In this document: piece after piece, positions 32,711-37,909 of the stretch
How positions within the stretch are numbered: position 1 is the stretch's first letter
Layout: every line of letters begins with the position of its first letter
From: a virus
IMG/VR virus record: IMGVR_UViG_3300013132_000028
Span: 1 to 64,000 of that record
DNA: 64,000 nucleotides
Strand: one strand, 5' to 3'
The notes under the pieces: model-generated
The model's input: the letters and a program-made list of their open reading frames with translations, nothing else
Database searches by the model: none
What the model was told of the DNA's origin: nothing
Position numbers and translations under genes: made by a program

Positions 32711-35700
32711 CTACAATTTGAGATTGTGCGTGAGCATGTTCACCGTAAACAGCACATCGTCTTCCTCTGTGTCAAAGACATAAGCCATAGCTGGAAGGTC
32801 TATAACCGTCTTTTCCACCACCGGAGTCCACTCCAGGTCGTCAATAGTGTCCCCGCCTCTGCGCAACACTAAGTCACCGACTTGAACCAAGTAGGCGACA
32901 GTAAATGAATAGGTAGTGTCCCGCCTGACTAGTATCGGGTGTTCTGCTGTAAACCGGTCTCCGTTTATAGAAATCTGCAGCATGGCGGCCCTGGTCAAAT
33001 GCACTCTTTGTATGGTAGTCGTCAGCATCTGCACTGGCGTCAGAGTCTGACTAGACCACAGCGGCAGTGAGTAGGCGGTCTCATCCGTGGTAAGTTCTGC
33101 AAATCTCACGGAGTAAACGACGTCACCTCCACGTAGGTGCTGCGCCTCCACCGGACCGTTAGGCGTGGCGACTAGTGTAGAACCAACTATGCAGCCACCG
33201 CCACCGCCATACGGGTCGCCATACGGGTCGCCATACGGGCCTGACGGCGGCGGCGGCGTCGGGTCTGGCGTCGGATTCGACTGTCCGCTGAAAAGCGCGG
33301 GAAGGCTCGGAAAGTCGATGGTGAACGGCGGGAACGTCGGCAACTCGAACGGCGGGAACGAAGGCGGGTCGAAGTCTAATGGGAACGGCGGGATTTCGAT
33401 TGGTGCGATCGGCGGCACCGGCTCCGGCGTCGGCGTCGGCGTCGGCGTCGGCGTCGGCGTCGGCGTCGGCGTCGGCCCGCCGCCCTGGCAGTTGCAGCAC
33501 TGCCGGTCGCACGGAATGGCGTACGACGTGCAGCCACCGATGTTCTGGCAGCCGAGTTCTGCGCACGTGTACTGGAATGGGTTGGTGATGGTTCCAGGGC
33601 ACGGAGGCAGTCCAACCGGGGTCGGCACCTGCACCGGCACCGGCACCGGCACTGGACCCGTCGCGCAGCCTAGGTTGTCGAATCGGTTTGCGCAGCCTAG
33701 CGGCGTGTAGCACAGGTACCAGTTGCGAATACCCGACGGACAGTTGGGGTCGTTAGTGGTGTAGTAGTAGCTTAGGTTGGGGTCGCACTGGTTGCAGTTT
33801 GGCGCCACCGGCACTGGCACCGGCGTCGGTATCGGCACTGGCACTGTCGGCACCGGCACCGGGACCGGACCTGGGCACGGTGCAGGAAACTGAGGGTGCG
33901 GCAGGCACTGCGTGCTGAAGCACGTGCCGCTGGCGGACACGTCTGTTGCCGAAGGATACGTGCTGCAGCCGCCGCCGCAGTCGACGGTCTTGCAGTTCCA
34001 CGGAAAGCCGGCGACTGGCACTGGGACCGGACCTTCGCCGTCTGGCACGCACGGGGTGACGACGTCGGCGCAGCCCGACGGCGTGATGCAGTACGAGTTT
34101 CTTCCAGGTCGAGGGTACTCACGGTCGTTGTTTGTGCACGGCAAGTTTACTCCGAAACCGTACGGGCAGCACGCGGCAGTAAACTGAGGCGGGTTGCAGC
34201 ACTGGTTGGCGACTGGCACCGGTATCGGCACCGGCGTTGGTATCGGCACCGGCACGGTCGCGGGCACGCACGGCGTGTTGTAGTTGGCGCAGCCCTGCGG
34301 CGTGATGCAGAAGTCGAACTTTCCTGGCCGCCCGTCCGTCGTCGTGCAGTTTTGGTTGAACCCAAAACCGTACGGGCAGCACTCTGCGGAGATTTCCGGC
34401 GGGTTGCAGCACGCGCTGTTGACTGGCACTGGTATCGGCACCGGCGTCGGTATGGGGACCGGCACGTTCTCGCACGGCGCAGGGTAGCCGTACAGCGCGA
34501 ACTCCGCCGCAGGCCGGCAGATGGTGCTGTAGCACGTGCCGCTGCCGGTGCGGTCCGTCGGGCTGTAGTACATGTTGCAGCCGCCGCCGCAGTCGCGGGT
34601 GGTGCAGTAGAAGCCGGTTAGGGCGACTGGAATTGGAATTGGGACAGGCGTCGGCACACCTGCACACCTAATCTGCGCAGCGGCTTCTACCGGTGGATAC
34701 GGGGTACTCGTCGTGCCCGCGGCGCACACTATCAGCTCTCGCCAGAAGGAGCCCGGGAGATACGTGTCCACGGACTGGTCCGTGTTGAAACAGCCGTAAA
34801 AGGTGGGTGGAGACACGTAGATGCCGCTATCGTAGTCGCAGATAGACTTCACGCAGCAGAAGTTCACCGGACAGCAGTATCTGTCGTTGTTTATGTACGT
34901 AGAGACGTACCCGGCAGAGCAGGTAGCGTAGAAGCCGACCGGTCCGTAGCCGCCACTGCAGACCTGGGCACAGCCTGAAATCTCCGGCCCCTGCGCCGGG
35001 TACTGTGGGTAGGTCGCGGTGTCCAACTGCGAAGCAGTGAACATCGCCGAGTTGCAGGTGCAGCTGGTCGAGGTGCACTGTGATGGCAAAAAGCCGGCTT
35101 CGGTGCAGTCTCTCTGCGGTCCTGGGTAGCCTATCTCTTGGCCGATTGAGACCTGCTGAAACTGGTAGTTTCTGGTGGTGTACTGGCCGCTAAAGCCGTT
35201 GCAGATGCTGCAGACGCACGAGTAGTACCAGTAGCGCTGCTCGCTGAAGTCGTACGGTCCAATGTAGTTTTCAGCGTTGACCCAGTCCGACCAGTCTCCG
35301 TTAGAACTGGTGCGCGAACGGACCTCCAGCGCGCTGAACTTGCCGTTGTACGACTGGCCGGTTATGGTCTTCTCCTGGCCGGTGCCGTCGGCCGTCCAGG
35401 CCCCCACTGCGCCGACGTACCAACGGTACTCGTATTCTTGTGTTGTGCCGCTCGGCTCCCAGGTGCCTGGGTAGCCGACTATTACCATCGGCGCGAGGTT
35501 TATTTGTCCACTCTGTATCAAAATTCGAGGAGGAACTATGTTTACGGGCGCGCTGCCGCCGATCGTGACTAAGCCGGTGAAGACACTGGAAGTAGCGCAG
35601 CTTCCCGACTGGTGAAATAGCTCGGCGTAGTATTTCTGTCCCGCGGAAAGCGGCCCGATGTCTACGGAAGCCACCTGTCCCGCCACAAATGGACCGGCGT

Positions 35701-37909: not shown

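Follow-up and report, generated by a model that had tools for sequence, protein, structure and literature searches.

A predicted A-type BIL-like Hint domain at the end of a phage tail-locus protein

What could a Hint domain accomplish at the extreme end of a phage tail-locus protein? Self-processing domains of this type have been described in hedgehog proteins, in inteins and in the surface and toxin proteins of bacteria. The domain considered here is encoded in a stretch of 64,000 nucleotides (the window; positions 1 to 64,000 of IMG/VR record IMGVR_UViG_3300013132_000028), which belongs to a genome record of 117,837 bases with one such domain. The window phage is a freshwater bacterial virus related to the freshwater actinophage DSL-LC01 (48% identity in the protease, 47% in the minor tail protein), and a search of DSL-LC01 for a Hint domain found none. 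The gene lies on the minus strand at 32711–37909, starts with GTG and encodes 1732 residues; a full-length relative in contig L003 is 82% identical. The first-pass annotation had reported this reading frame with its coordinates and length, together with Cys1573, a TxxH motif, a terminal HN and Leu as the next residue, and every one of these is present in the translation.

The protein divides into four parts, all on the minus strand. Residues 1–890 (35240–37909; 86.6% identity to L003) are possibly Ig/Fn3-like, with fn3 matches below threshold only. Residues 891–1475 (33485–35239) form a Cys-rich part with PVPVPIP/PTPTP linkers; 60 of the 70 Cys of the protein fall at residues 898–1474, that is, within about 577 residues, with recurrent CC pairs, and so many Cys are unusual for a phage tail protein, which is assembled in the cytoplasm. 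A Cys motif near the end of this part is common to L021 (E 1e-7), whose otherwise unrelated protein carries it beside TPTP repeats and also has a Hint domain. Residues 1476–1572 (33194–33484) are a Pro-rich linker that ends in GGGGG directly before Cys1573, and the Hint domain occupies residues 1573–1729 (32723–33193). Within it lie Cys1573, the block A nucleophile (33191–33193; Cys1 of the domain), the block B TxxH motif T1654–H1657 (32939–32950), block F with Asp1713 and Asp1718 (32756–32773) and the block G pair His1728–Asn1729 (32723–32728), at which Asn cyclisation is predicted. Only Leu-Lys-Leu (LKL; 32714–32722) follows, beginning with Leu1730 at the +1 position; this tripeptide is the entire possible C-extein and reads LKM in L002/L003. 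Residues 1–1572 have no significant Pfam or PHROG match, which leaves the label 'adhesin' that they had been given unsupported, and a tblastn search of phages with the full protein gave no match.

The identity of the domain emerged from family-level comparison. Searched on its own, the sequence gave only sub-threshold matches in Pfam and NCBIfam (E 0.017 for Pfam Hint_2, short of the family cut-off), so the domain would escape routine annotation, and phmmer with the single domain against the PDB returned only noise, so a family profile was needed. A profile built from 16 relatives (alignment A2) matched the BIL domain 2lwy best (E 6e-13) over its whole length, followed by the Tetrahymena BUBL BIL domain and then archaeal inteins. 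The sequence is thus nearer to BIL domains than to inteins (best archaeal intein, E 3e-6), with few BIL structures available for the comparison. An AlphaFold model made from the same alignment (pLDDT 89.9, pTM 0.86) retrieved 2lwy first in Foldseek (E 1.5e-7) and the BUBL domain second, together with intein and hedgehog structures. The domain combines a predicted Hint fold with a Cys nucleophile, TxxH, a terminal HN and a +1 position at which Cys, Ser or Thr is not obligatory, as in A-type BILs. It departs from inteins in its +1 Leu, in the mere three residues after HN and in a host protein that is absent from 16 of 17 syntenic lineages; from hedgehog (Hog) domains in having no sterol-recognition region, since the protein stops three residues after HN; and from Pretoxin HINT domains of polymorphic toxins in having no toxin domain after Hint. 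The PT-HINT family had no match in the genome. By profile and model, the last 160 residues of this putative tail-tip protein are thus characterized as a Hint domain of the A-type BIL-like kind.

Conservation centres on the active site. In alignment A1, just 9 of 160 columns are invariant, and all five catalytic residues that were expected fall in them (p ~1.5e-7, a rough figure that assumes independent columns and ignores relatedness), and the invariant columns of A2 include C1, T82, H85, D141, D146, H156 and N157. Across the two alignments, Cys1, the block B Thr and His, and HN are invariant down to 22–32% identity. Cys1, the TxxH His and HN are each retained in 41–43 of 43 distinct relatives, HN in all 43 and Cys1 aligned in 41; in L021 the Cys lies upstream of an insertion, and a free-standing copy in phage NCTB is without it. 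Loss of Cys1573 in close relatives, named beforehand in the first-pass annotation as the observation to overturn its reading, was looked for and not encountered: the Cys is kept in 42 of the 43 relatives, among them L001/L014, with a 100% identical Hint part, and L002/L015 and L003/L016, with 85% identity. Profile, fold and invariant active site therefore agree with the annotation's central point, a Hint domain that looks catalytically complete at the end of a tail-locus protein. In the comparison of the window with the full-length L003 relative, dN/dS was 0.19 for the Hint part, 0.32 for residues 1–890, 0.24 for the Cys-rich part and 0.40 for the Pro-rich linker, so that the Hint part is under stronger purifying selection than the remaining protein. 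The linker before Cys1573 is the fastest-evolving segment, with 59.6% identity to L003 against 85% for the Hint part. At the C-terminal junction, non-nucleophilic residues (L, K, V, A, Q, I, Y, F, M) predominate at +1; the tail-protein relatives show nine residue types there besides the Leu of the window lineage, and Thr is confined to the Alexandra-like group. The residue before Cys1 is Gly in about half of the matches listed, and in some relatives it is Pro (DP–C, GP–C).

The Hint domain is found well beyond this phage. With tblastn it was detected in 54 phage records, nearly all from large Erwinia phages, the remainder being Dickeya AD1, Yersinia fHe-Yen9-02, NCTB and the records named Alcaligenes Afa-NA1 and Salmonella Sen-NF; the annotations of the genes read tail protein, virion structural protein or hypothetical protein. 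Scans of IMG/VR added further phages with Hint-ending structural proteins. Most member proteins terminate with the domain, having 1–17 residues after HN; these tails are unrelated across groups and are as short as a single Lys (L021). In the L092–L102 group, about 100 residues follow HN, with Lys at +1, and by eye they look like a fibronectin-type domain. The N-terminal partners fall into at least six groups, a count that depends on blastp sensitivity, with no detectable similarity across groups except for short collagen-like or Cys-rich stretches. Being joined to six or more unrelated N-terminal partners, the domain behaves as a portable module at the C-terminus of structural proteins in phages, transferred between unrelated tail proteins. 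Terminal, nearly extein-less Hint domains on phage tail proteins are thus recurrent and already visible in databases: BFVD names some of these proteins 'Hint domain containing', and the annotators of NCTB and Y3 recorded an 'intein domain'. The first-pass annotation regarded such processing of a tail protein as uncommon, a view that does not survive this distribution. A scan of genome contigs with A2 confirmed no bacterial relative, which is weak evidence of absence since the scan is tied to one short peptide pattern.

Two of these records merit separate mention. The Hint-ending tail proteins of Alcaligenes phage Afa-NA1 (L007) and Salmonella phage Sen-NF (L008) share an identical 185-residue C-terminal end and the record sizes differ; a wrong host label on one of them, or faulty assembly of the records, could account for this. 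In NCTB, a free-standing degenerate Hint protein (L009:8468–8950) lies right after a Hint-ending tail gene. It has no N-terminal partner, has lost Cys1 and the His of the block B TxxH, and ends in HNKVD. This protein is possibly a decayed copy or a regulator, and the loss of Cys1 and the TxxH His from a partnerless copy is expected if those residues serve the N-side junction.

Synteny is the basis on which the 1732-residue protein is assigned to the tail. Upstream, also on the minus strand, are genes for a putative minor structural protein with a homologue in DSL-LC01 (37961–39430), a minor tail protein identified by its PHROG match and used as the synteny anchor (phrog_1885; 39420–41450) and a Dit-like distal tail protein (41500–42456; SPP1_Dit, E 2e-4; phrog_33, E 5e-19). 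The Hint gene is flanked by a conserved tail gene on one side and a conserved gene of 164 codons on the other. The interval so bounded is hypervariable across 17 non-redundant relatives with the same synteny, its length running from about 1 to 9 kb. Besides the window, only one of these 17 lineages (L079/L003) has the Hint protein, which, together with the hypervariable interval, points to an accessory component of the tail-tip locus; its role is probably in host recognition. No dedicated partner gene was found beside the Hint gene, the neighbours being present also in relatives without Hint. Elsewhere in the window, three large plus-strand genes at 6125–14435 are tail-fibre-like, two of them with RCC1-like (regulator of chromosome condensation) repeats.

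Two minus-strand genes (30771–31972) immediately downstream of the gene for the proline-repeat tail protein encode 2OG-Fe(II) oxygenases resembling prolyl hydroxylases, and the relatives L068, L076 and L079 have similarly placed oxygenase genes. Among the window and the 17 syntenic lineages, such genes occur in 4 of 4 lineages with proline-repeat, Cys-rich tail proteins and in 0 of 14 others (p ~3e-4, or 1.5e-3 if the window and L079 are counted once; rough figures that treat lineages as independent). The oxygenases may hydroxylate the tail linkers. A 91-residue CxxC protein (32379–32654; phrog_13558; DUF6171-like, below threshold) accompanies these Cys/Pro-rich tail genes and is also present in L088.

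Given a terminal Hint domain that looks catalytically complete, one would naturally expect thioester-based cleavage of the tail-locus protein, and by analogy with the relatives of the domain cleavage is likely. The reading that we favour, and hold to be rather probable, is that the domain would remove itself post-translationally, serving as an expendable module at the C-terminus, positioned like the self-cleaving chaperones at tail-spike ends. The Gly1572–Cys1573 bond would undergo an N–S acyl shift to a thioester, aided by the TxxH histidine; cyclisation of Asn1729 would cut off LKL; and water or a small thiol would resolve the thioester and release residues 1–1572. Alternatively, in a fraction of molecules, the LKL amine would resolve the thioester and join 1–1572 to LKL. 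Predicted homology supports self-removal, with 2lwy nearest by both profile and fold and the active-site residues of the N side and C side invariant, as do the low dN/dS of the Hint part, the flexible, freely varying GGGGG/Pro linker before Cys1 and the Gly that precedes Cys1 in about half of the matches listed. The spread over at least six unrelated N-terminal proteins, the mostly non-nucleophilic +1 residues and the partnerless NCTB copy that lacks Cys1 and the TxxH His suggest the same. BIL domains predominantly cleave (PMC7664689). Against plain release stands the strict retention of HN although only 1–17 residues follow it in most members. HN is dispensable in hedgehog Hint domains and would be equally so for merely freeing the N-terminal part, so plain hydrolysis may explain only part of the pattern. 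The Pro before Cys1 in some relatives also argues against self-removal; in engineered inteins, Pro at this position hampers the first step.

The main rival is splicing, in which the amine of LKL, or of the short tail of a relative, would attack the thioester to leave 1–1572 joined to LKL and the Hint domain excised; as the main product we consider this unlikely, if well worth entertaining. The first-pass annotation had dismissed splicing because Leu follows HN, which is too strong: lack of a +1 nucleophile is the hallmark of A-type BILs, for which splicing as well as cleavage has been reported (PMC5874633, PMC7664689, PMC9185962), in accounts that trace, through the papers citing them, to Dassa 2004 and Aranko 2013. 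The literature is not uniform, as one review states that A-type BILs cannot ligate (PMC7765530), and reviews give cleavage as the dominant outcome of BILs. Retention of HN everywhere though little follows, the domain after HN in the L092–L102 group and the Thr +1 of the Alexandra-like group, which could support normal splicing, would all suit ligation. So would the 10-residue Alexandra-like tail, at least as conserved as the body (83% versus 71% mean identity), but among the Erwinia phages the next gene's ribosome-binding site (GGAG ahead of its ATG) lies within the tail codons and could by itself keep the tail conserved, so its conservation is not decisive for ligation. The lack of relationship among tails across groups, down to the lone Lys, also speaks against splicing. 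Ranked third, and to our mind improbable, is covalent attachment, in which another tail subunit or the host envelope would supply the nucleophile that takes over the Gly1572 thioester, much as cholesterol takes over the N-terminal part of hedgehog, and the tail protein would be cross-linked. Equally doubtful is the corresponding function, a terminal BIL making a reactive C-terminal thioester that welds tail parts together or to the host surface in a hedgehog-like step of assembly or adsorption. This chemistry is permitted by the fold, which hedgehog and the BUBL BIL domain of a ciliate have in common with it, and the 60 Cys of the middle part are possible acceptors; however, there is no conserved partner gene, no additional acceptor-recognition region follows the Hint fold, and a hedgehog-like route leaves the conservation of HN unexplained. 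That the domain is kept for folding or assembly and stays uncleaved in the virion is more improbable still. Purifying selection is compatible with such a role and cleavage is itself a prediction, but the invariant positions cluster at the catalytic residues of the two junctions, even among lineages that have diverged widely. A selfish intein inside or at the end of the tail gene shares the fold, and true inteins occur in phage terminases (L091); we nevertheless disfavour it as very improbable, given a terminal domain with no endonuclease, no C-extein to restore and no +1 Cys, Ser or Thr, in a host protein that is not conserved.

Phages have repeatedly and independently placed the domain at tail-protein ends, where its active site looks intact although the C side offers next to nothing for release. 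If self-removal is correct, an autocatalytic maturation step would be added to tail assembly. The open-access literature yielded no functional study of terminal phage-tail Hint domains, only inteins in terminases and replication genes, and the restriction to open access makes this weak evidence of absence. The AD1 paper (PMC6143709) mentions neither inteins nor mass spectrometry, and no proteomic or biochemical data were found for the window phage or any related phage. The culturable phages Alexandra, Y3, AD1 and fHe-Yen9-02 make the pattern directly testable.

Among known systems, the Clostridium thermocellum A-type BIL (PDB 2lwy) shares with the phage domain its predicted fold, blocks A, B, F and G, terminal HN, non-nucleophilic +1 and a setting in variable proteins. 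The phage domain differs in residing in tail proteins with almost nothing after HN, in an activity that is predicted, and in a Cys1-to-Asn span of 157 residues, slightly above the 130–155 quoted for BILs in PMC9185962. The hedgehog C-terminal autoprocessing domain (1at0) likewise is a terminal Hint of the same fold acting on the N-terminal part, whereas the phage domain has no sterol-binding extension and keeps HN. Peptidase S74 and the intramolecular chaperones of tail spikes are C-terminal modules that remove themselves; they share with the phage domain only this idea, their fold and chemistry being unrelated. The Alexandra-like jumbo phages and NCTB encode a 'putative phage tail protein, contains intein domain' (phrog_38766, which matches the window domain at E 5e-7) with the same C-terminal position, Cys1, TxxH, HN and short tail, and differ in an unrelated N-terminal part, Thr at +1 in most, and a Hint identity of 22–31%.
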